Below are positions 1 to 11,111 of a DNA stretch of 11,297 nucleotides, piece after piece. The number at the start of each line of letters is the position of its first letter. Positions within the stretch are counted from its first letter, which is position 1. Under the pieces are notes generated by a model that worked only from the letters and a program-made list of their open reading frames with translations, made no database searches and was not told the DNA's origin. Origin of the DNA: Psychrobacter sp. P2G3 (GTDB lineage: Bacteria; Pseudomonadota; Gammaproteobacteria; Pseudomonadales; Moraxellaceae). Made by a program: the position numbers and the translations under genes. The DNA is taken from assembly GCF_001593285.1 (NCBI RefSeq), contig NZ_CP012531.1, positions 1 to 11,297 on the forward strand, written 5' to 3'.

Positions 1-223
1 TAGGTTCGCTACAGAGCTTACCAGTAAAGGACTTTGGAGCTGATAAAGCTACCTTTTACGACCCATAAAGCTACCTTTTACGACCCATAAAGCTACCTTT
101 TACGACCCATAAAGCTACCTTTTACGACCTTATAGATACTTTTTGGTTGCTATTGTAGCGATATCTATTTAATGTTATGGTTATGCTTAATTTATACATT
201 GTTCAATTACAGGCAAGGCAGCC
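1..223. other. Iteron-type replication origin (oriV) region
   Basis: This stretch lies upstream of the Rep_3 initiator gene and holds four tandem iterons (43-130), followed by an AT-rich leader to the repM start. An inverted repeat with 7-bp arms (ATAGATA at 132-138, TATCTAT at 162-168) flanks the likely repM promoter area and may be a Rep operator. The promoter itself is unclear; TTGGTT (143-148) or TTGTAG (153-158) could be -35 elements, but no convincing -10 partner is seen. I found no good DnaA box. In this plasmid class the Rep protein binds the iterons and melts adjacent AT-rich DNA; here that DNA could be the T-tract repeat at the other end of the window if the plasmid is circular. Confidence 0.75.
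43..130 (+). repeat. Four tandem 22-bp iterons
   Basis: Four head-to-tail copies of a 22-bp unit beginning ATAAAGCTACCTTTTACGAC start at 43, 65, 87 and 109. The first three are identical; the last differs only in its final base. The period equals two helical turns, so every copy faces the same side of the DNA, as expected for binding sites of a Rep_3 initiator and for copy-number control by handcuffing. The sequence just after (131-150) looks like a decayed fifth unit, but too weakly to count. Confidence 0.95.
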
Positions 224-1213
224 ATGACCAAAAAACAAATAGTTTCTAAAGATAACGATTTGATGGGCGCAAGTTATAGTTTAGGAGTGGCAGAGCAGCG
301 GCTTATATTCCTAGCAATCATTGAAGCAAGAGAGCAAAACAAGCTGATTGATGTCGGTAAACCTTTGCGTCTTTACGCTAAAAGCTATGAACAGCAATTC
401 AGTGTAGAAAAACATACTGCATACGAAGCCATGAAACGTGCAGTTAACGGGCTGTATGAAGCAGGATTTAGTTACGATAAAATAGAAGAGGCGAGCGGTA
501 AGAACATACATTATAAAAGCCGTTGGGTAGAGAAGATTGCTTATGCTGATGAATTGGGCTGTGTTGAGCTAACTTTTGCAAGTGATGTTATACCGCTAAT
601 AACACGCCTTGATAGCTGCTATACCGAATATGAGTTAAGGCAAGTAAGTAGCTTACAAAGTGAATATGCCATTAGATTATATGAATTAATGATACGTTGG
701 CGCTCAGTGGGCAAAACCAATAAGATAATGATTGATAGTTTACGCTCGATGCTAGGGGTTGAGCCTAATAAATACAAACAGATGAATAACTTTAAAGCAA
801 AAGTATTAGACCATGCTATAAAGCAGATTAACAATCATACGGACATTACAGCTACTTATGAGCAGCATAAGCAAGGGCGTCAGATTGCAGGCTTTACCTT
901 TAGGTTTAAAATTAAGGAAAAAGATACGAAACCTCTTGGCATAGTAAGAGATCCTCATAATATCGATTGGATAAACGGTGTTACAGATGAAGAGGTTAAA
1001 GGTATGACTCCAGCGCAAGCAGATAAGTATGCGGAGCTACTACACCAAGAACCATCAATCGTAGGCAACTGGTCAGATTGTGATAGCTACTTTAAAGCTA
1101 AGATGAAGCTGAAAAAACAACTACAAGAGCCTAGGTATGTTAGAGAGTACATGACTCATTTGCTGAGTTGCAGTGACCCTTTCAGCCCTAAACTCATAGG
1201 ATTACAAAAATGA
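224..1213 (+). CDS. repM: RepM/RepB-type plasmid replication initiator (Rep_3 family)
   Basis: This 329-aa protein is the replication initiator that binds the iterons just upstream. It has the Rep_3 layout: an N-terminal winged helix with the family-typical opening (residues 12-31, including YSLGVAEQRLIF), and a second winged helix at about residues 130-230 containing the SEYAIRLYELMIRW segment. Length is normal for Moraxellaceae RepM proteins (about 300-330 aa). ATG at 224 is preceded by AGGCAAGG at a workable distance. The stop overlaps the next ORF by ATGA, so the two are probably co-translated. The family is clear; host range and incompatibility group cannot be read from the sequence. Confidence 0.95.
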   Translation: MTKKQIVSKDNDLMGASYSLGVAEQRLIFLAIIEAREQNKLIDVGKPLRLYAKSYEQQFSVEKHTAYEAMKRAVNGLYEAGFSYDKIEEASGKNIHYKSRWVEKIAYADELGCVELTFASDVIPLITRLDSCYTEYELRQVSSLQSEYAIRLYELMIRWRSVGKTNKIMIDSLRSMLGVEPNKYKQMNNFKAKVLDHAIKQINNHTDITATYEQHKQGRQIAGFTFRFKIKEKDTKPLGIVRDPHNIDWINGVTDEEVKGMTPAQADKYAELLHQEPSIVGNWSDCDSYFKAKMKLKKQLQEPRYVREYMTHLLSCSDPFSPKLIGLQK

Positions 1214-1641: not shown

Positions 1642-4443
1642 ATGAGTTTAGACTATCAGCATATCCGTGAGCAGCTACACCGTATTATCCATGACTATAA
1701 AGACGCTGAAGGGTATGAGAGAGGTCAAAGCCAGAACTTTTGGACGCAGATCTTCAATGCTTACGGTGTATCTGGGCAAGTACAGTCAAAAGCATTTGAG
1801 CATCGTCTAAAAGACGATAAGTCTCAAAAGTATGTTGATGCTTTTATTCCTAAACTGGTGATGATTGAACAAAAAAGCCGTGGTCTTGATCTCAATAAAG
1901 CCTATAACCAAGTCAGCAAATACTACGAGCGCCTAAGCGCAGCAGATAAGCCAAGATATATCGTGTTATCCAACTTTGATGAACTATGGCTATTCGATAT
2001 TGAAAACCCTCTGAACATCAAAGAATATAAATGTCCTATTGCTGACCTACCTAAAAATGCTGAATGGTTGGACTTCTTAGCACCAAATGCGGCAATGGCT
2101 GAGATAGTTGAAGAAAACCCGATTAACCGTCAGGCAACTGAAATGGTCGCTAAGCTACATCAAGCGTTTATCTCCGATGGGGTTAATGCGGATGAATTAG
2201 CATTATTTCTAACCCGTCTAATCTTTTGTTTCTTTGCCGATGACACTGGCATCTTTGGACAAAAAAACCTGTTAGATGGGTTACTCACGAATGAGGCAAG
2301 GAGTGACGGTAGCAACCTCAACGAGGTATTTACCACGCTGTTTGATACTTTAAACACTAAAGATCGCTCAAGTCGCCTGCCTGAAAGCTATGCTGCCTTT
2401 GCTTACATCAACGGTGATCTGTTCTCTCAGTCAATCCGCATCCCTTACTTTGATAAAAACCTCTATAACCTAGTCGTTCAGTGCAATAACCTTGATTGGA
2501 GCGAGATTAGCCCTGCTATTTTTGGCTCAATGTTTCAAAGCGTACTCGATATAGATGACACAGCAGACAGCGACGATAAGCGTCGTGAGTTTGGTGCTCA
2601 CTACACTAGTGAAAAGAACATTTTAAAGGTCATCAATTCTTTATTCTTGCAAGACCTACGTGACGAGTTCTCAAAATGCGCTAAAGATAAGCCAAGAGCG
2701 TTAAAGCTCTATGAAAAACTTCCTACATTAAAATTCTTTGATCCTGCTTGTGGCTGTGGCAACTTCCTGATTATTGCTTATCGCGAATTGCGTCTGTTAG
2801 AAAATCAGCTGATCGCACAGATTTACGGTGACCAAAGAGGTTTACTTGATATTAGTAGTATGTGCCAGGTTACGGTAGAACAATTCTATGGCATTGAGAT
2901 TGAACCACACGCGGCTCATATCGCAAGGGTAGCCATGTGGATTACCGATCATCAACTGAACCAAGCCACTGCTGAGCGCTTTGGTACAACACGCCCTACA
3001 ACGCCCATTGTGTACAGTCCACACATTACAGAGGGTAATGCCCTACAAATTGACTGGGAGGACGTTCTAGCGGCAAATGAGTGCGATTTTGTGATGGGCA
3101 ATCCACCCTTCATTGGTGCTAAATATCAAACTAAAGAGCAAAAGGCAGACCTGGAAAATGTAGCGAAGCAAGTAAAAAACTACAAAACCTTAGACTATGT
3201 TGCAGGTTGGTACATAAGAGCTATGCAATATATGCAAGGAGTTAGTAAACAAAATCATCAAGTTGAAACTGCATTTGTTTCTACTAACTCTATTTCTCAA
3301 GGTGAGCAGGTAGCTATTTTATGGAAATACCTCTTAGTGGAATGTGGTGGTTATATTAACTTCGCCCATCAGACATTTAGCTGGACTAATGAAGGTAAGG
3401 GCGTGGCAGCAGTGCATTGCGTAATTATTGGCTATGGTTTGAATGAACGTAGTGACAAAATATTATTTAGCTATACAGATATCAAAGGTGAACCAATACC
3501 GAATAAAGCTAAAACGATTAACGGTTATCTTATAAATGGTGAAGTAATATTCTTTGATAAGACAAGAAACCAAATATCAAATGAGATAAAAATGGAAAAA
3601 GGTAGTTACTCTACCTGTAGTGGCAACTTGGTCATGTCTCCCGATGAAAAGAATAATTTAATTGCAACTGAACCGTTAGCAGAGCAGTATATTCGCCCTT
3701 TTATGGGCGCAGAAGAATTCCTGAACGATAAAGAAAGGTTTTGCCTATGGTTTGATGGTATCGACGTAATCAAATTAAATAAAGATTTAGCCCAAATGCC
3801 ACAAGTCAGGCAACGTATTGACAATGTGAAAACATTTCGATTAGCTAGCACTAAAAAAGCGACACAAAAAAAAGCTGAGCAACCGCATTTGTTTGATGAA
3901 AATCGTCAACCCCCTAAAGGACAGAATCTACTTATAATCCCTGTAGTGAGTTCCGAGAATAGAAAGTACCTACCAGTTGGATTCGTCTCATCAGATATAG
4001 TAAATTATTATGCAAACCTGATGCTTGCTAACGCGACGCTTTATCACTTTGGAGTATTAAACTCAGCAATGCATAATGCTTTTATGCGTCTAACAGCTGG
4101 TCGCCTAAAAAGTGATTACCGCTACTCAAATACTATCGTTTATAACAACTTCTTATATCCTTTTGATGCCGAAGATGTAGATAATAAAACATTGAAAACT
4201 AAAGATGTTATTGGATCGGCTGCTCAAGTCGTTTTAGATGCTCGTAAGCACTACCAAGACGGTAGCGAGAATGCACCAACGCTCGCTAAGCTTTACAATA
4301 CTTACATGATTGATCCTTATCCTGAGCTAACCAAAGCTCATAATGCACTTGATAAGGCAGTAGATAAAGCTTACGGCTACAAGGGTAAGGGCGACGATGC
4401 TAGTCGTGTAGAGTTTTTACTTAAACGCATAGCAGACATGTAA
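1642..4443 (+). CDS. MmeI-like type IIL restriction-modification enzyme
   Basis: This 933-aa single-chain enzyme would both cut and N6-adenine-methylate DNA. The N-terminal nuclease has the MmeI-type PD-(D/E)XK pattern D66-x9-E76-x-K78. A helical spacer spans about 150-310. The gamma-class methyltransferase follows: motif X region GAHYTS (318-323), SAM-binding motif I DPACGCGNF (367-375), motif II GIEIEP (417-422) and catalytic NPPF (487-490). The target-recognition domain covers about 620-860, with the conserved GRLKSDYRYSNTIVYNNF element near its end, and a C-terminal helical domain closes the protein. MmeI itself is about 919 aa, so this is full length. GTAAGG lies 6 nt before the ATG; TTCAAA (1576) and TATTAT (1598) may form a promoter. 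Members methylate one strand and cut about 20 nt away; the recognition sequence here is unknown. The gene stands alone, needing no separate S or R subunit. Confidence 0.93.
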   Translation: MSLDYQHIREQLHRIIHDYKDAEGYERGQSQNFWTQIFNAYGVSGQVQSKAFEHRLKDDKSQKYVDAFIPKLVMIEQKSRGLDLNKAYNQVSKYYERLSAADKPRYIVLSNFDELWLFDIENPLNIKEYKCPIADLPKNAEWLDFLAPNAAMAEIVEENPINRQATEMVAKLHQAFISDGVNADELALFLTRLIFCFFADDTGIFGQKNLLDGLLTNEARSDGSNLNEVFTTLFDTLNTKDRSSRLPESYAAFAYINGDLFSQSIRIPYFDKNLYNLVVQCNNLDWSEISPAIFGSMFQSVLDIDDTADSDDKRREFGAHYTSEKNILKVINSLFLQDLRDEFSKCAKDKPRALKLYEKLPTLKFFDPACGCGNFLIIAYRELRLLENQLIAQIYGDQRGLLDISSMCQVTVEQFYGIEIEPHAAHIARVAMWITDHQLNQATAERFGTTRPTTPIVYSPHITEGNALQIDWEDVLAANECDFVMGNPPFIGAKYQTKEQKADLENVAKQVKNYKTLDYVAGWYIRAMQYMQGVSKQNHQVETAFVSTNSISQGEQVAILWKYLLVECGGYINFAHQTFSWTNEGKGVAAVHCVIIGYGLNERSDKILFSYTDIKGEPIPNKAKTINGYLINGEVIFFDKTRNQISNEIKMEKGSYSTCSGNLVMSPDEKNNLIATEPLAEQYIRPFMGAEEFLNDKERFCLWFDGIDVIKLNKDLAQMPQVRQRIDNVKTFRLASTKKATQKKAEQPHLFDENRQPPKGQNLLIIPVVSSENRKYLPVGFVSSDIVNYYANLMLANATLYHFGVLNSAMHNAFMRLTAGRLKSDYRYSNTIVYNNFLYPFDAEDVDNKTLKTKDVIGSAAQVVLDARKHYQDGSENAPTLAKLYNTYMIDPYPELTKAHNALDKAVDKAYGYKGKGDDASRVEFLLKRIADM

Positions 4444-4981: not shown

Positions 4982-5356
4982 TCATTCCAAACTATTGTAT
5001 GCCATTATTCCTGCTTTATCGACCAATCTTTGAGCGTTGCCAACTTTGTTAGGTGCTGCTACCTCTCTTAATATTAATAACGATTCTAGCACTATCGGCA
5101 TCAAAACATTTACCATATCATTCTGATTTGATGTGCTCTCTACCGTTTTTGATCCTTCGTCGTTCGACTGTAATAAGTGCAGAATTTCACTAATATCTCC
5201 TTTCATAAATTGAAGGTCTTCAAGAAAGTTATTGGTATCTGACTCCAGTTTTTTCTTCAAGTAGCCACCAGGCGTTTGCCCTGCCTCTGCTGCTATCGCT
5301 TCTAGTTTTAGGTAGATTTCTGGCTTTAATCTAAATGATACAGTAGGGGTACTCAT
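4982..5356 (-). CDS. Ribbon-helix-helix protein, probable relaxosome/mobilisation accessory
   Basis: This 124-aa protein begins with a likely RHH domain (residues 4-38: a strand TVSFRL, then two helices around EIYLKLEAIAAEAG and TPGGYLKKKLE), the fold used by MobC-, TraY- and TrwA-like proteins that bind oriT. The C-terminal half is helical (about 85-123) and may mediate oligomerisation. I chose ATG at 5356 because AAGGA lies 6 nt upstream; the reading frame also extends to a TTG at 5374, but that includes the Shine-Dalgarno and is unlikely. It lies divergent to the HTH gene at 5817, with the oriT candidate between them. A chromosomal-style transcription repressor or the antitoxin of a lost toxin are alternatives. 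No relaxase gene is present. Confidence 0.6.
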   Translation of the reverse strand: MSTPTVSFRLKPEIYLKLEAIAAEAGQTPGGYLKKKLESDTNNFLEDLQFMKGDISEILHLLQSNDEGSKTVESTSNQNDMVNVLMPIVLESLLILREVAAPNKVGNAQRLVDKAGIMAYNSLE

Positions 5357-5360
5357 AATT

Positions 5361-5440
5361 ATCCTTGTTTGCAATTTGTAGACAGTAATATATCATATAA
5401 ACCAGCTACTTAAATTAATTTTGTTTGCACTTTGCATGCA
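5361..5440 (-). promoter_or_regulatory. Promoter/operator region of the RHH gene
   Basis: Since a strong bidirectional terminator lies at 5442-5489, the promoter of the minus-strand RHH gene must fall here. On the minus strand TATGAT (5397 down to 5392) or TATATT (5392 down to 5387) could be the -10; no good -35 is seen. Three TGCAAA-like elements occur (two adjacent near 5425-5438, one at the Shine-Dalgarno near 5368-5374) and could be RHH operators. This is inference from position and repetition. Confidence 0.35.
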
Positions 5441-5441
5441 G

Positions 5442-5489
5442 AAAAAAGCATCTTAAATCAGGTAAGTTACTGATTTAAGATGCTTTTTT
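5442..5489. terminator. Strong bidirectional hairpin terminator (20-bp arms)
   Basis: The left arm AAAAAAGCATCTTAAATCAG (5442-5461) and its exact reverse complement (5470-5489) surround an 8-nt loop, GTAAGTTA. The stem ends in a run of seven T on the plus strand and six T on the minus strand, so it can stop transcription in both directions. It has no upstream gene in its own direction and lies between the oriT candidate and the RHH gene, so it would insulate that gene from transcription out of the oriT/stb region. A structural role in plasmid transfer is an alternative. Confidence 0.75.
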
Positions 5490-5490
5490 T

Positions 5491-5542
5491 CATCCCGATA
5501 GGGTGCGTAAGGTGTAGTCATTAAATTGGATAATTTAATGAC
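5491..5542 (-). other. Candidate origin of transfer (IncQ/MOBQ-like oriT)
   Basis: Read on the minus strand, an inverted repeat with 11-nt arms (GTCATTAAATT and AATTTAATGAC, 4-nt loop, 5517-5542) is followed by TACACC and then TTACGCACCCTATCGGGAT (5510 down to 5492). IncQ-type origins have an inverted repeat directly 5' of a nick region with core TAAGTGCGC/CCT; related Gram-positive origins continue with a TACGGGAT-like tail, as I recall. The similarity is GC(A/G)CCCT then CGGGAT. By analogy the nick would fall on the minus strand between 5503 and 5502. The neighbouring RHH gene fits. The match is imperfect and from memory, and no relaxase is encoded here. Confidence 0.5.
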
Positions 5543-5549
5543 CAAAAAG

Positions 5550-5579
5550 CAGGTAGAGAAATCGGTTATTTTCTACCTG
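5550..5579. repeat. Inverted repeat, CAGGTAGA arms
   Basis: CAGGTAGA (5550-5557) and TCTACCTG (5572-5579) are perfect inverted copies; G-T and A-T pairs extend the stem inward by three, leaving a loop of about 8 nt. It lies directly between the oriT candidate and the next palindrome. Function unknown; an accessory-protein site or a short RNA hairpin are possible. Confidence 0.55.
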
Positions 5580-5582
5580 TCG

Positions 5583-5608
5583 TAAGCCTTTTTAGCTAAA
5601 AAGGCTTA
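5583..5608. repeat. Perfect 26-bp palindrome
   Basis: Two 13-nt halves (left half TAAGCCTTTTTAG) form an uninterrupted palindrome just upstream of the phased repeats. With its internal T and A runs it might act as a terminator or as a protein-binding site bounding the repeat array. It is the last of four inverted repeats packed between 5442 and 5608. Confidence 0.65.
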
Positions 5609-5620
5609 TAAGAGCGTTAC

Positions 5621-5759
5621 ACAAGCAAAAACTAAGCAAACTACGAGCATTTCGCTAGCAAATTATGAGCAAATATAATAAGAAAGCTGTATTATGAGCA
5701 AAATACAAGCAAAAACTAAGCAAACTACAAGCATTTCACTAGCAAATTATGAGCAAATA
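5621..5759 (+). repeat. Eleven AGCA-core 11-bp phased repeats in two blocks (5 + 6)
   Basis: AGCA (mostly AGCAAA) begins at 5624, 5635, 5646, 5657 and 5668, then at 5697, 5708, 5719, 5730, 5741 and 5752: exactly 11 bp apart within each block, with a 29-bp step between blocks. As units, the 11-mers run 5621-5675 and 5694-5759. The array also reads as a 57-bp direct repeat (5621-5677 and 5705-5761) with two G-to-A differences at 5645 and 5654. Phasing near one helical turn implies cooperative binding along one face. This matches partition-type sites; R388 stbS has two sets of five 9-bp repeats with 2-bp spacers, and its unit TTGCATCAT resembles TTTGCTCAT, the reverse complement of one copy here. 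The gene at 5817 is the likely binder. Confidence 0.9.
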
Positions 5760-5816
5760 TATTTAACACCTTGTACTCATATTAGTGACCGCTAAAAAGC
5801 AGATAGAGAGCAATTT

Positions 5817-6218
5817 ATGGCTAAGAGAACAAAGTTTTCCAAGTTTCGTGATCTTTATGAAGTGATCGAAGAGCTGGCTGTTTCATATACCTATGAAGGC
5901 GTGGTTGAGATATTAGCTGAGCGCCATGACCTCATTCTAACGACTGGCACACTGACCAATTATCTTTATCGCTATAGAAAAGAATCAAAGGAATTGTCTG
6001 CCGCTACAGATAATTCTAGCAGTAATGTTGAGGTTAAACCTGAGGCAAGAAAACAAATTTTTGTTGACTTATATTCTAATGACTCAATCCAAGAAAGTAA
6101 TACAGATGCTAGTGATGAGCCATATGTACAGCCCACGCATGAAGAATTAGATACGGCTATGAAGAGATTTGAAGCGAAGCTAGCAAATAAAAGAAATAGA
6201 TCTCTTCTTGATAGGTAA
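5817..6218 (+). CDS. Small HTH DNA-binding protein, StbA-like (or TraK-like)
   Basis: This 133-aa protein has a basic N-terminus (MAKRTKFSKF) and a helical segment at about 12-55 that reads as a helix-turn-helix: YEGVVEILAERHDL followed by the likely recognition helix in TTGTLTNYLYRYRKE. A polar, acidic, probably disordered linker spans about 57-110, and a short basic helix ends the chain (about 108-130, RFEAKLANKRNR). That is the plan of R388 StbA: an N-terminal HTH that binds 11-bp-spaced repeats in front of its own gene, plus a flexible C-terminal half. RP4 TraK, which wraps oriT, is similar in size and is the main alternative. The phased repeats directly upstream support self-regulation. 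AGAG about 8 nt before the ATG is a weak Shine-Dalgarno. Family assignment is by architecture and context, not by alignment. Confidence 0.6.
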   Translation: MAKRTKFSKFRDLYEVIEELAVSYTYEGVVEILAERHDLILTTGTLTNYLYRYRKESKELSAATDNSSSNVEVKPEARKQIFVDLYSNDSIQESNTDASDEPYVQPTHEELDTAMKRFEAKLANKRNRSLLDR

Positions 6219-6285: not shown

Positions 6286-6546
6286 ATGAGTATTGAAGGT
6301 ATATCAGTAGCAAGTAACCATTTCATGATGTTTGAAGAGGCGCAACGAGAATACTACCGTCAAATGGGTCGTCTTAACACCTTTGGTTTAGAAAACGAGA
6401 CTCATAGCGATAGTATACGTAAAAAAATGTTTGAATTAAAAGATGAGGAACGTTTGCTGAGAGAATATAGCGCGAGCGAACTCTACGTCATACAAAAAGA
6501 GCTAAAACTGAAAATTAATGATTTTCTGCGTGAATTGGATGGGTAG
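6286..6546 (+). CDS. Unknown 86-aa protein downstream of the StbA-like gene
   Basis: Not recognised. A strong Shine-Dalgarno (AAAGGAG, 7 nt before the ATG) shows it is translated. The product is charged and almost wholly helical, with a probable coiled coil or helical hairpin from about residue 42 (SIRKKMFELKDEERLL) to 84. There are no cysteines, membrane segments or signal peptide. It follows the StbA-like gene by 67 bp with no terminator between, so an operon is likely. A partner in segregation or mobilisation is inferred only from position. Confidence 0.65.
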   Translation: MSIEGISVASNHFMMFEEAQREYYRQMGRLNTFGLENETHSDSIRKKMFELKDEERLLREYSASELYVIQKELKLKINDFLRELDG

Positions 6547-6650: not shown

Positions 6651-6851
6651 ATGAGCACAACCAATTATAATATCCGTCTGGATCAAGAATTAAAAGACAA
6701 GGCATTTTCGGTGCTTGAGGGCTATGGTTTAACGCCTTCGCAAGCGATTAAGTTATTTTTGCATCAGGTAGCAGAAACCAATAGCATACCGCTGTCTTTT
6801 GATTATCAGACAATGCCTAGCACCAATATGCTTGAAGACGGTGATCAATGA
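6651..6851 (+). CDS. relB: RelB/DinJ-family RHH antitoxin, short
   Basis: The 66-aa product has the RelB/DinJ N-terminus: strand YNIRLD (6-11), then helices with ELKDKAFSVLEGYGLTPSQA and IKLFLHQVAETNSIPLSFD, which dimerises and binds the operator. RelB/DinJ proteins usually run 80-95 aa; this one stops shortly after the DNA-binding domain, so most of the usual toxin-binding tail is missing. The stop overlaps the brnT start by ATGA (6848-6851), showing translational coupling to a BrnT toxin rather than a RelE/YafQ toxin. It could be a repressor borrowed by the brn module or a decayed antitoxin. Confidence 0.85.
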   Translation: MSTTNYNIRLDQELKDKAFSVLEGYGLTPSQAIKLFLHQVAETNSIPLSFDYQTMPSTNMLEDGDQ

Positions 6852-7132
6852 TTGAATTTGAATGGGATGAACAGAAAGATAGCAGTAATCAACGCAAACA
6901 TGGCTTATCCTTTGAAGAAGCAGCTCGGGTATTTTTTGATCCTTTGTGTTTGCGTCAGCAAGACCGCTATGAAAATGGTGAAGAACGGTGGCAAGCGCTT
7001 GGTGCAGTGAATGGGGTAGCCGTATTGCTGGTCGCTCATACTCAAAGAGATAGTGAGGGTGGTGAGGTTATTCGTATCATATCAGCACGACCTGCCACCA
7101 AGGCTGAAAGGAGATTTTATGAACAAGGTTAG
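6848..7132 (+). CDS. brnT: BrnT-family toxin (ribonuclease, DUF497)
   Basis: The 94-aa protein matches BrnT from end to end: the opening FEWDEQKDSSNQRKHGLSFE (4-23), the central FFDP segment, and the closing IRIISARPATKAERRFYE (75-92) whose arginines and aromatic residue belong to the RelE-like active surface. BrnT cleaves RNA and halts translation until bound by BrnA. It is intact and full length. It overlaps the upstream relB by ATGA and the downstream brnA by 14 nt. Order toxin then antitoxin is normal for brnTA; a RelB-like gene ahead of it is not. Confidence 0.93.
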   Translation: MIEFEWDEQKDSSNQRKHGLSFEEAARVFFDPLCLRQQDRYENGEERWQALGAVNGVAVLLVAHTQRDSEGGEVIRIISARPATKAERRFYEQG

Positions 7133-7415
7133 CTATAAAGCAAATGAGTTACCGTCTTTAAGCGCTGAGCAAGAAGCCAATTTGCAACGATTGGCAATGC
7201 TTTCAGATGATGATATAGATTTGTCTGATATGCCTGAAGTCACAGACTGGTCGAGTGCGACTCGTGGTAGTGTGGTGGCAGATGATCCTATGGTCGGTGC
7301 CAGTATAGTGAGTCCTAGTATCATTGCTAGATTCCAGGATAAGGCGAAGAAGACCGGCGGAAACTATCAAGATATGATTAATGATGCGCTAGAAGAGTAT
7401 TTGTTAGATCATTAG
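7119..7415 (+). CDS. brnA: BrnA-family antitoxin
   Basis: The 98-aa antitoxin pairs with BrnT. The N-terminal half, with LSDMPEVTDWSSATRGS (about 32-48), is the toxin-contacting region of BrnA, and the C-terminal part (about 63-98, with a GGNYQDMINDALEEYL element) is the RHH DNA-binding domain. ATG at 7119 is chosen because AAAGGAGA precedes it by about 5 nt; an in-frame start at 7053 would lie deep inside brnT and lacks a Shine-Dalgarno. The 14-nt overlap with brnT makes the pair translationally coupled. Two RHH proteins could therefore compete for or share the 6600-6648 operator. Confidence 0.92.
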   Translation: MNKVSYKANELPSLSAEQEANLQRLAMLSDDDIDLSDMPEVTDWSSATRGSVVADDPMVGASIVSPSIIARFQDKAKKTGGNYQDMINDALEEYLLDH

Positions 7416-9105: not shown

Positions 9106-9139
9106 TAAGCTTATGAACGCTAATATTCAAGATATGGCT
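9090..9139. repeat. Inverted repeat at the convergent cargo/RloB junction
   Basis: AGCCATATCT (9090-9099) and AGATATGGCT (9130-9139) are exact inverted copies separated by 30 nt. The right arm enters the last codons of the rloB-like gene. The long loop makes a classic terminator unlikely; it could mark an insertion junction of the defence cassette or be coincidental. Confidence 0.4.
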
Positions 9140-9759
9140 ATCTTATGGTCTTCAAAAATTTCTTCTACAATCTTATATACATTAGTATAAGGGTTTTTAA
9201 TTCCTCTACTCTCCATTTGCTTTGCATTACTAATTGCTGTCCCAAGATTTTGATGCAATATTGAAAGATGATTTTCGTTTTTAGCGTATTGTTTAAGAAG
9301 CTTAGTCGTTTCAGACTTAACTTGTTGACTTGCAGTTTTTGAACCTTTCTTGTGAAAAGGCTTACTGGATTGGGTAAAGTGGAGTAGATACCATACTTCA
9401 AAGCAAGGGTCAGATAGAATAGCCTCGAAGTTTTTTTTCTGTCTTATACTTTCAACAGCTGCTTGATAAGTAGGATGTTGATCTTTGTCAAAGACACAAT
9501 AAACTTTGTCATACTCTACCTCACCTTTAAGTTTGCTAACTCTATATAGTTCCACTGCTGTTGAATAAACAGACATAGGTGCTGATCCACACTTACCTAT
9601 TATCTGAACATTAGCTGCATTGATCTTATATTTATGTATTAGGCTTTTAAAGTAATTAGGCTCAGTGACTTCGCCTTCACACACAATCAGTATATTCTTG
9701 TATTGTCTAAGAAGTTTTGACTTGCGAGATAAATTATTCTTGGGCTGCCTCTTTGACAT
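9127..9759 (-). CDS. rloB: RloB-family TOPRIM nuclease (AbiLii-like effector)
   Basis: The 210-aa protein has the RloB-type TOPRIM fold: a basic N-terminus, then ILIVCEGEVTEPNYF with catalytic Glu at E28 (23-37), the DxD motif FDKDQH (D91, D93), and the family signature SDPCFEVWYLLHF (116-128). TOPRIM domains of this group are metal-dependent nucleases. Its start overlaps the stop of the ATPase gene by one base (TAATG), so the two are translated together. ATPase-TOPRIM pairs of this sort are anti-phage abortive-infection systems: AbiL (AbiLi plus AbiLii), RloAB, and the related PARIS (AriA plus AriB) and OLD/Gabija groups. The RloB signature favours AbiL/RloAB over PARIS, whose AriB carries a different (DUF4435) domain. 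Confidence 0.9.
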   Translation of the reverse strand: MSKRQPKNNLSRKSKLLRQYKNILIVCEGEVTEPNYFKSLIHKYKINAANVQIIGKCGSAPMSVYSTAVELYRVSKLKGEVEYDKVYCVFDKDQHPTYQAAVESIRQKKNFEAILSDPCFEVWYLLHFTQSSKPFHKKGSKTASQQVKSETTKLLKQYAKNENHLSILHQNLGTAISNAKQMESRGIKNPYTNVYKIVEEIFEDHKIAIS

Positions 9760-11111
9760 TATTGTTCCGTTTTTAAAAAATTAGATTGGGAGTCAATAAA
9801 TGGAACAGCTCCAAATAAACCTTTCAAGTACTGAGCTTCATAGCTTTCACCACGATCCTTTCTCACGCTAAAATCATGCAAAGAGTAAATACGCGAAGCA
9901 TAATTCTCATCTTTTTCGACAAACCAAATCTGGTCTCGTCTAAAAAGATCTTTTTTCATTAAATGTGTGTCGTGAGTAGTAAATATTAACTGAGCGTTTG
10001 TTTTATTAGCATCATTGTCATGAAATTTTTCTATAAGGAATCTAACTAATTTAGGATGTAGATGATTATGCAACTCATCCAAGACCAAAATACTACCTTC
10101 GTTTAATGTGTCAATAATAGGGCCTGCAAGGGAAAATAGTTTTTTAGTACCCTCTGATTCTTCCTCAAAATCAATTACCTTATTCTGTCCATCAATCTCT
10201 CTAACAGACTGAAGATCAATAATTCCGCCCTCTTTAAAATCTTTGATTATTTGTGATTTTATCTCTTCAGGAATGCCAACAGGGAAAGAAAGTTTATCAA
10301 TGTCTATTTCTTCTTTTTTAACCAGAAAATCGTCGATACCAATGTCGGCGTATTTAAGAAAATCCAGTATCTGTTTTTTATATGTATTTTCACTGCAAAT
10401 AGATTTGGTATACCCCTCACCAAAATGGGAGTTAGTATCTGTTGTAATATGTAATTTTTGATCAAACCAGTCATATAACGGTTTTAATTGCTCGCTATTT
10501 AGGTTAACTGCATTAGATAAAAATAGGACGTTAGGTCGCGTATTACTCTCCCAATCGCTTTTATTGCCCTTGAATAGACTACTGAAAGTGTAATCATATC
10601 CATTTTTTTTATTTTGATCATATTTTCGATAAAACCATTCTTGAACACGACCTTTAGGATAAGCATGTAGCCATTCCTCAATAATATGTTCTTTATTAAA
10701 AATTACTCCATAATCATACCTAATAAGCTTCTGATTATCAGAATTTGTAGCAGTTTCAGATGTTTCGACATGATTAGCTACACTAGCAATGATCGAAATG
10801 CTAATTTCAATTGGTGAATCCTTTGATTCGCTATCAAAACTAAATAGATCGGTAGGTATTTTTTGATTAGGTTTGAAGTTAGTAGAGTTGATAACTAGAA
10901 ACTTCATATATTTTAAAGCTTTAATCAAATTAGATTTACCTGATGAGTTGGCACCGTAAATAACACTTGTTCTTAATAGATCAGGTGTCTTAGGAACATG
11001 AGGATCGAAAGTATTTGTTGATAGAAGTTCCTCGCCTTGAGATTTAACCATAGTAAAAGTAGCTTGTTCTTTGAACGAACGATAGTTCTTCACTGTAAAT
11101 TCAATGAGCAT
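9759..11111 (-). CDS. rloA: RloA/AbiLi-type AAA (ABC-like) ATPase
   Basis: This 450-aa ATPase has the OLD/RecF-like ABC fold: N-terminal strand MLIEFTVKNYRSF (1-13), Walker A GANSSGKS (53-60), an insertion and helical arm region at about 100-310, signature-like ESEGTKKLFSLAG (318-330), Walker B ILVLDELHNHLHP (341-353, with D345 and E346), and switch histidine in FTTHD (H380). All catalytic motifs are intact. It would sense infection and control the RloB nuclease encoded directly downstream. The start is set by the conserved N-terminal strand; Shine-Dalgarno is poor (GAG only), and the -10 box lies just 11 bp upstream, so translation may be almost leaderless. Confidence 0.92.
   Translation of the reverse strand: MLIEFTVKNYRSFKEQATFTMVKSQGEELLSTNTFDPHVPKTPDLLRTSVIYGANSSGKSNLIKALKYMKFLVINSTNFKPNQKIPTDLFSFDSESKDSPIEISISIIASVANHVETSETATNSDNQKLIRYDYGVIFNKEHIIEEWLHAYPKGRVQEWFYRKYDQNKKNGYDYTFSSLFKGNKSDWESNTRPNVLFLSNAVNLNSEQLKPLYDWFDQKLHITTDTNSHFGEGYTKSICSENTYKKQILDFLKYADIGIDDFLVKKEEIDIDKLSFPVGIPEEIKSQIIKDFKEGGIIDLQSVREIDGQNKVIDFEEESEGTKKLFSLAGPIIDTLNEGSILVLDELHNHLHPKLVRFLIEKFHDNDANKTNAQLIFTTHDTHLMKKDLFRRDQIWFVEKDENYASRIYSLHDFSVRKDRGESYEAQYLKGLFGAVPFIDSQSNFLKTEQ

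Follow-up and report, generated by a model that had tools for sequence, protein, structure and literature searches.

We analysed a stretch of 11,297 bp (from here on, the window), which is contig C3 of a four-contig genome and represents a Psychrobacter-type RepM plasmid, and consider it likely to be a relaxase-less plasmid of the pOriT type that combines ATPase-free segregation by StbA with mobilisation by a foreign MOBF helper. Such a plasmid would probably be kept stable by StbA alone and leave the cell only with the machinery of another element. The evidence is that of sequence, namely StbA and TrwA homology, an oriT core, the arrangement of the region, the missing trwB, trwC, and stbB genes, and purifying selection on both proteins; the binding of StbA, its effect on stability, and mobilisation are what we infer from it. 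The preliminary description of this DNA had proposed a segregation locus consisting of one protein and its repeats. StbA and the repeats stand, but they belong to a larger trwA-oriT-stbA region of the MOBF type that the description had missed and, because the repeats lie inside this region, our reading becomes that of a relaxase-less transfer-origin and segregation cassette.

The candidate StbA sites form two blocks of direct repeats with an 11-bp period, one of five units (5618-5678, forward strand) and one of six (5691-5762, forward strand), which StbA is predicted to bind. The AGCA cores of the first block lie at 5624, 5635, 5646, 5657, and 5668 and those of the second at 5697, 5708, 5719, 5730, 5741, and 5752, in both cases in exact 11-bp steps, which confirms the eleven cores, in blocks of five and six, that had been noticed before. 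When 500 sequences were generated from the whole window by a first-order Markov model and spacings of 7-39 were all allowed, no run of at least five AGCA was seen, and the longest run, of four, occurred in 1 of the 500. The blocks are one 69-bp segment repeated at 84 bp with 90% identity, and hence the eleven units do not represent eleven independent events. The last core precedes the stbA start by 65 bp. Just before stbA lies one more AGCA pair 11 bp apart (5798 and 5809; 5798-5812, forward strand), possibly a weak operator, and AGCA pairs at this distance are confined in the window to the array and this leader. When the stretch between oriT and stbA was compared across 33 loci, many of which are close relatives and thus not independent cases, the best period among 8-20 was 11 in 31 of them, and the observed period-11 value was reached by at most 3 of 200 shuffles in 30 (all except L007, L014, and L035).

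Blocks of 11-bp direct repeats between oriT and stbA, as expected for an StbA of the type found in the IncW plasmid R388, are therefore present in the window. The units in the R388 record (L017) have the same strand sense as those in the window and a ATGATGCA-type core, and the R388 unit TTGCATCAT, as given in the preliminary description, agrees with the printed one (PMC3098194). The claimed similarity of the units is there, but only after a shift of one base: the repeat core is AGCAAA in the window, where the cores include ATGAGCAAA and ACTAGCAAA, and ATGATGCAA in R388. For this reason, we give more weight to period, place, and strand sense than to the letters.

The gene that follows the array (5817-6218, forward strand) is an open reading frame for a protein of 133 amino acids, which we call an stbA homologue on the basis of profile matches, hhalign, and selection. 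As a single sequence, the protein has no match in Pfam; in NCBIfam, StbA_2 is the top but sub-threshold match (E 0.0045; 17.6 bits against a cut-off of 100), and among PDB sequences R388 StbA (PDB 7PC1) is found at E 0.11, ranked below a chance match to ubiquitin. It shares 23 of 74 aligned positions with R388 StbA. The profiles, which were built with R388 left out and are thus not circular, gave a clearer answer: with nine Psychrobacter-type sequences, 7PC1 was the best match at 4.7e-4, and with 12 Moraxellaceae sequences, it was the best match in the PDB at 8e-10. Together with an hhalign probability of 92.3%, this argues for an N-terminal helix-turn-helix (HTH) domain of the StbA type. The AlphaFold2 model (mean pLDDT 68.4; 25-sequence alignment) has four helices in residues 6-63, with mean pLDDT values, in blocks of 10 residues, of 90-92 for residues 11-50 and 77 for residues 51-60, followed by a stretch below 50 (residues 63-94) and a helix of middling confidence at 108-126. 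Thus, the small HTH protein with a disordered tail that had been described holds in the model, with the addition of a possible small C-terminal helix. 7PC1 was not among the rows of the Foldseek list for this model, also at a second look.

The neighbours of related genes point the same way. A tblastn search with StbA against 72,556 plasmid records found 34, of which 13 loci were inspected, and relatives in other genera have about 30-45% identity. A StbB-family gene directly follows the homologue in plasmids of Pseudomonas mendocina, Acinetobacter pittii (called by BLASTP), and Moraxella bovis; in Pandoraea, a transposase gene stands between the two, and in P. hunanensis, the gene in the StbB place is annotated as hypothetical. 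A coupling protein and/or MobF is annotated near the homologue in P. mendocina, Pandoraea, A. pittii, and M. bovis, and the A. tibetensis locus has no StbB, coupling-protein, or MobF neighbours. A Pseudomonas protein annotated as TraD is also among the tblastn matches; according to Guynet 2011 (PMC3098194), NAH7 TraD is significantly homologous to StbA and RP4 TraK is reached by iterated search, and both, unlike the window protein, are part of complete conjugation systems with a StbB-type partner. Profiles and gene order of the relatives support the repeats-stbA layout that had been compared with R388, and the assignment of the window protein as a StbA homologue of the R388 type is thereby supported at the level of sequence. 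We note that a Shewanella electrodiphila draft contig (L114, 184-585) encodes a StbA 95% identical to that of the window, by transfer or by contamination of the assembly.

Upstream of the array, and divergent from stbA, lies a trwA homologue (4982-5356, reverse strand; 124 amino acids from the ATG at 5356), which would encode a ribbon-helix-helix (RHH) accessory protein of the relaxosome and a likely repressor. In Pfam, nothing matched this protein; by pairwise BLASTP, it has 43% identity to the protein that occupies the trwA position on the M. bovis MOBF plasmid (E 4e-23) and 26% to R388 TrwA (E 3e-11), and hhalign gave a probability of 98.7% for the homology to TrwA. Two palindromes resembling TrwA operators stand in front of it: TGTTTGCAATTTGTAGACA at 5366-5384, 10-28 bp upstream of the trwA start, and TGTTTGCACTTTGCATGCA at 5422-5440. 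Relative to the oriT core of the window, these palindromes, of the form TGTTTGCANNTTGCANACA, stand at -136 and -80. Of 43 oriT loci examined, 32 have such a pair with a spacing of 55-56 bp, among them the MOBF loci L015 and L087 (at -134 and -78), two have a single palindrome, and R388 and eight others (Pseudomonas, Pandoraea, Sphingomonas, and Acinetobacter) have none; the pattern was drawn by eye from the same loci, and no locus matched it in more than 4 of 100 shuffles. TrwA presumably binds these palindromes.

The adjoining MOBF-type oriT (5489-5545, forward strand) consists of a bulged inverted repeat CATCCC/GGGTG, seen by eye, the core GGTGCGTAAGGTGTA at 5502-5516, and a further inverted repeat at 5517-5542. 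Two more inverted repeats (5550-5579 and 5583-5608, the second a perfect 13+13) fill the interval between oriT and the array (5550-5608). The core stands 315 bp upstream of stbA and aligns with the oriT core of R388; with nic placed as we take it to lie in R388, nic in the window is expected between 5515 and 5516. In the first 16 loci, R388 included, GGTGCGT[AG] was found 229-404 bp upstream of stbA without exception, and the alignment of oriT sequences with R388 has 13 invariant columns, nine of them in the core. A 15-bp core that is one base off that of the window, GGTGCGTATGGTGTA, stands beside trwB, trwC, and stbB in M. bovis (L015/L086), in L087 from the same family, and in Sphingomonas citri (L139). 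The window thus contains a MOBF-type oriT core with an RHH accessory protein and, in the leading region of that transfer origin, an stbA gene divergent from trwA. The bases at nic are AAGGTGT/AG here and ATTGTCT/AT in R388, and R388 TrwC itself may therefore not cut this oriT. For mobilisation of R388, 17 bp (14+3) around nic suffice (PMC3264647).

The enzymes that would act on this origin are missing. The 11.3-kb contig has no trwB, trwC, stbB, stbC, or other conjugation genes; none of the 15 window ORFs scanned belongs to a coupling-protein family, and PF08751, the TrwC family, is absent from the plasmid's own genome. Because neither the MOBF relaxase TrwC nor the coupling protein TrwB was found, we describe the region as a carrier of a MOBF-type oriT and TrwA and do not file it as a MOBF module. 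Moraxella StbB, as a query against the same genome, found no match at E 0.001, and no stbB lies downstream of stbA; a downstream stbB defines the stbABC operon and not the StbA protein. The same 15 ORFs include no ParA, ParM, or TubZ family member by Pfam and/or NCBIfam that could be the cognate NTPase of a ParABS, ParMRC, or TubZRC partition system, and the earlier statement that the window has no such gene stands (of 26 ORFs of at least 60 amino acids, the other 11 overlap the scanned ones in other frames). The ATPase at 9759-11111 is of the AAA_21/AbiLi type.

We found the window StbA matched in 16 of 105 Psychrobacter genomes, and the core GGTGCGTAWGGTGTA in 24 of them (35 sites) compared with none for the reversed control. 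In the genome of the window, all three small contigs carry the core: C2, which encodes TrwA and StbA; C3, which is the window; and C4, which encodes a MobV relaxase but lacks StbA. Residues 1-61 of the C2 paralogue of StbA are identical to those of the window protein, its tail is different, and the C2 array differs in letters from that of the window. Neither TrwB nor TrwC was seen at any of 21 loci of the genus (window itself excluded) with flanks of about 1.5 kb, several of them cut by contig ends, or at any of 17 Psychrobacter-type loci, a set overlapping the first, with flanks of up to 6 kb, among which L114, L116, and L123 offer less than 0.7 kb on the side where these genes would lie. The gene beside oriT was trwA at 13, mobV at four, and neither at three of the 21 loci, with that side lost at the contig edge in one (L036); for the 17 loci, the figures were 11, two, three, and one (L114). 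In L036 and L114, oriT falls outside the visible contig, and in the mobV loci L032 and L037, the StbA match is a fragment only. A StbB-like ATPase occurs in 7 of the 105 genomes and, in 2 of the 17 loci (L115 and L128), 4-5 kb away on the same contig, which indicates that StbB-type help is not always absent. In P. cryohalolentis K5, such an ATPase (L084, 7462-8271; NC_007968, 19461-20270), annotated as hypothetical, lies about 5 kb from stbA, close to but separate from the annotated ParA-ParG pair.

PF08751 and VirB4 (PF03135) were each absent from all 105 Psychrobacter genomes, with the control positive in 1 of 14 named genomes in either case. Within the family, PF08751 was present in 7 of 348 genomes, among which L087 alone has the oriT type of the window in the stretch taken. 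That a MOBF helper was not seen among the 105 genomes is the main weakness of the reading we favour. Outside the family, Sphingomonas albertensis has the trwA-oriT-stbA set with no trwB, trwC, or stbB within 6 kb, and PF08751 is absent from its genome, the completeness of which is not told; S. citri has the complete set, and the two pair in the tree with support of 81/81, not starred. Comparison of these sequences suggests that the same reduction may have happened twice, in S. albertensis as against S. citri and in the Psychrobacter type. Among papers readable without subscription, none was found that describes a MOBF-type oriT, TrwA, or StbA for plasmids of Psychrobacter. Most of the arctic Psychrobacter plasmids studied in a 2013 survey are said to be without stabilisation systems (PMC3632715), a 2023 survey lists MOBQ, MOBP, and MOBV (PMC10457243), and StbABC genes receive mention in an Acinetobacter plasmid study (PMC5958079). 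MOB-suite types related plasmids of Psychrobacter as non-mobilizable or MOBV; because these plasmids carry a MOBF-type oriT, the mobility of Psychrobacter plasmids may be under-called.

The ratio of mean dN to mean dS was 0.15 for trwA (36 pairs, 9 genes), 0.25 for stbA (55 pairs, 11 genes), and 0.34 for the ORF that follows stbA (15 pairs, 6 genes), as calculated by NG86 from pairs that are not independent and of which some have dS above 1. Thus, trwA and stbA are under purifying selection. Mean dN was 0.111 in the DNA-binding half of StbA compared with 0.289 in the tail (54 of 55 pairs usable), and the highest dN/dS of StbA in a pair with the window protein was that of the C2/window pair, at 0.51. 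The ORF after stbA (6286-6546, forward strand; 86 amino acids, uncharacterised) belongs to a family of 86-91 amino acids that also stands directly after oriT in MobV plasmids without stbA (e.g. L085, 8042-8314, reverse strand), and by its place would be a leading-region gene.

Compared with R388, the window has the same divergent arrangement of trwA and stbA, homologous TrwA and StbA DNA-binding domain, an oriT core (GGTGCGTATTGTCTA in R388) at nearly the same distance from stbA (311 bp in R388 and 315 in the window), and a two-block array of 11-bp repeats that runs in the same direction. It differs in that trwB, trwC, stbB, stbC, and the other conjugation genes are gone, in the bases next to nic, in the StbA tails, which are not alike, and in having operator palindromes, which R388 does not. 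Also similar is the MOBF region of the M. bovis plasmid NZ_CP087861 (L086), with the TrwA at 43% mentioned above, an oriT core one base different, 11-bp repeats of the AGCAAA type, and palindromes 56 bp apart at -134 and -78; unlike the window, L086 has a coupling protein, a MobF relaxase, StbB, and several T4SS genes. The window also resembles the pOriT or relaxase-less hitcher plasmids (PMC11389934), which have an oriT but no relaxase and depend on a helper in trans, but, unlike them, it has kept two more genes of that region, one for a relaxosome accessory protein and one for segregation. The nearest case with an accessory gene is that of plasmids keeping only the accessory protein NikA, known to us from a title in the reference list of the same paper (PMC11389934).

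We therefore propose, with R388 as a guide, that the locus belongs to a MOBF transfer region of the R388 type that lacks its enzymes. In R388, both stability and even positioning depend on StbA and its repeats, StbB is dispensable for stability and needed for transfer, and transfer is abolished, by way of the repeats, if StbA is supplied and StbB is not (PMC3098194); StbA also lowers PstbA transcription 50-fold and represses several promoters (PMC3937220). By analogy, StbA of the window would bind the array, repress its own promoter, and tie the plasmid to the nucleoid or otherwise spread its copies without a dedicated motor ATPase, in the way of R388 StbA when StbB is absent. TrwA would repress itself and dress oriT for a MOBF relaxase arriving on another element, and the plasmid would be a hitch-hiker that brings its own accessory protein. 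Because StbA without StbB blocks transfer in R388, mobilisation here may need the StbB of the helper, and would be low unless the helper supplies it or StbA levels drop. In R388, tests of how StbA segregates plasmids without a motor ATPase are complicated by StbB and the full conjugation system; these small plasmids, in which trwA, oriT, and the array take up less than 1.3 kb, would be a natural StbA-only system. An extension of this model, which we offer tentatively and hold to be possible but doubtful, is that StbA without StbB acts as a gate that only a MOBF helper with StbB lifts: array-bound StbA would keep the plasmid in a "stay" mode, with exit only in the company of a fully equipped helper. 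The identity of C2 and C3 StbA over residues 1-61 predicts that each binds the array of the other and, in this extension, they would do so without partition incompatibility. If true, this would be unlike ParABS, with StbA tying plasmids to the host chromosome and not to each other.

Among the other explanations, we think it unlikely that oriT and trwA are a remnant of lost transfer, retained because StbA, which does the useful work, needs the array and TrwA is its self-regulating neighbour. The absence of a MOBF relaxase and VirB4 from the 105 Psychrobacter genomes would agree with this, as would R388 logic, by which StbA without StbB shuts transfer off; against it, dN/dS is lower for trwA (0.15) than for stbA or the ORF that follows it, MobV plasmids that have no stbA still show the oriT core and operator spacing, and the S. 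albertensis trwA-oriT-stbA set recurs without trwB, trwC, or stbB within 6 kb. That StbA is mainly a local transcription repressor, an auto-regulator and transfer brake with no real part in segregation, also seems improbable to us. Eleven sites would exceed the needs of a simple operator, and a like layout in R388 is required for stability and even positioning (PMC3098194), even if R388 StbA represses several promoters (PMC3937220) and the array sits just upstream of stbA, with AGCA pairs at 11 bp nowhere in the window outside the array and the leader. We regard it as very improbable that the protein comes from a HTH family unrelated to StbA, with repeats that serve as ordinary operators or iterons: this could appeal to the sub-threshold single-sequence matches and the structure search without 7PC1, but profile matches, gene order, and oriT context agree on StbA, and iteron-like repeats already stand before repM at 43-129.

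A further alternative, which we judge distinctly unlikely, is that the helper is already in the cell, i.e. that the MobV relaxase of co-resident small plasmids of the C4 type cuts the window oriT. C4 carries mobV and an exact 29-bp stretch in common with the window oriT; both kinds of plasmid occur together in G057, G088, G103, and strain P11G5 (a co-occurrence that may be due to chance), and in some MobV plasmids (e.g. L009), TATGGTGTAGT is common to MobV's own oriT and the second site, as seen by eye. However, a pBBR1-like oriT that belongs to MobV itself lies shortly before the mobV start, at about 45 bp in Psychrobacter plasmids, and such an oriT is reported in the 2013 survey for two MobV plasmids of strain DAB_AL43B (PMC3632715). 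Seven MobV genes of other lineages or a sister plasmid have the pBBR1-like site by eye, and six of them lack the GGTGCGT site in the 420 bp examined, the seventh (L107) having only 262 bp to examine. Moreover, in non-Psychrobacter loci, the GGTGCGT site stands mostly with TrwC, and the window core shares only the 8 bases GGTGTAGT with the C4 MobV site. Mobilisation by a foreign MOBF helper is the reading we favour. As a separate observation, MobV plasmids of Psychrobacter have two transfer-origin-like sites (in C4, L085, 8495-8773), their own just before mobV and, about 270-299 bp upstream, that of the MOBF type, with the 11 bases TATGGTGTAGT common to both in some. L112 (NZ_CP116244), a plasmid recorded under Escherichia coli, has the Psychrobacter-type oriT together with a mobV match broken into three pieces, and seems to be a Psychrobacter plasmid that was filed with E. 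coli.

Among the 24 plasmid records with a match to the window, 22 are from Psychrobacter. Four 22-bp repeats (43-129, forward strand), iterons by their place, precede the replication initiator gene repM (224-1213, forward strand; NCBIfam repM_Acin, 348.5 bits against a cut-off of 250). At 1642-4443 (forward strand) lies a gene for a MmeI-type IIG restriction enzyme-methyltransferase (PADLOC REase_MTase_IIG, 1004 bits), and at 9127-11111 (reverse strand) a two-gene unit that matches AbiLi (AAA_21) and AbiLii (RloB), a candidate phage-defence pair. Further, a RelB-like antitoxin, a BrnT toxin, and a third ORF follow one another, in an unusual order, at 6651-7415 (forward strand). The third ORF has a weak, sub-threshold similarity to the BrnA antitoxin and is annotated, like BrnT, in sister plasmids too.
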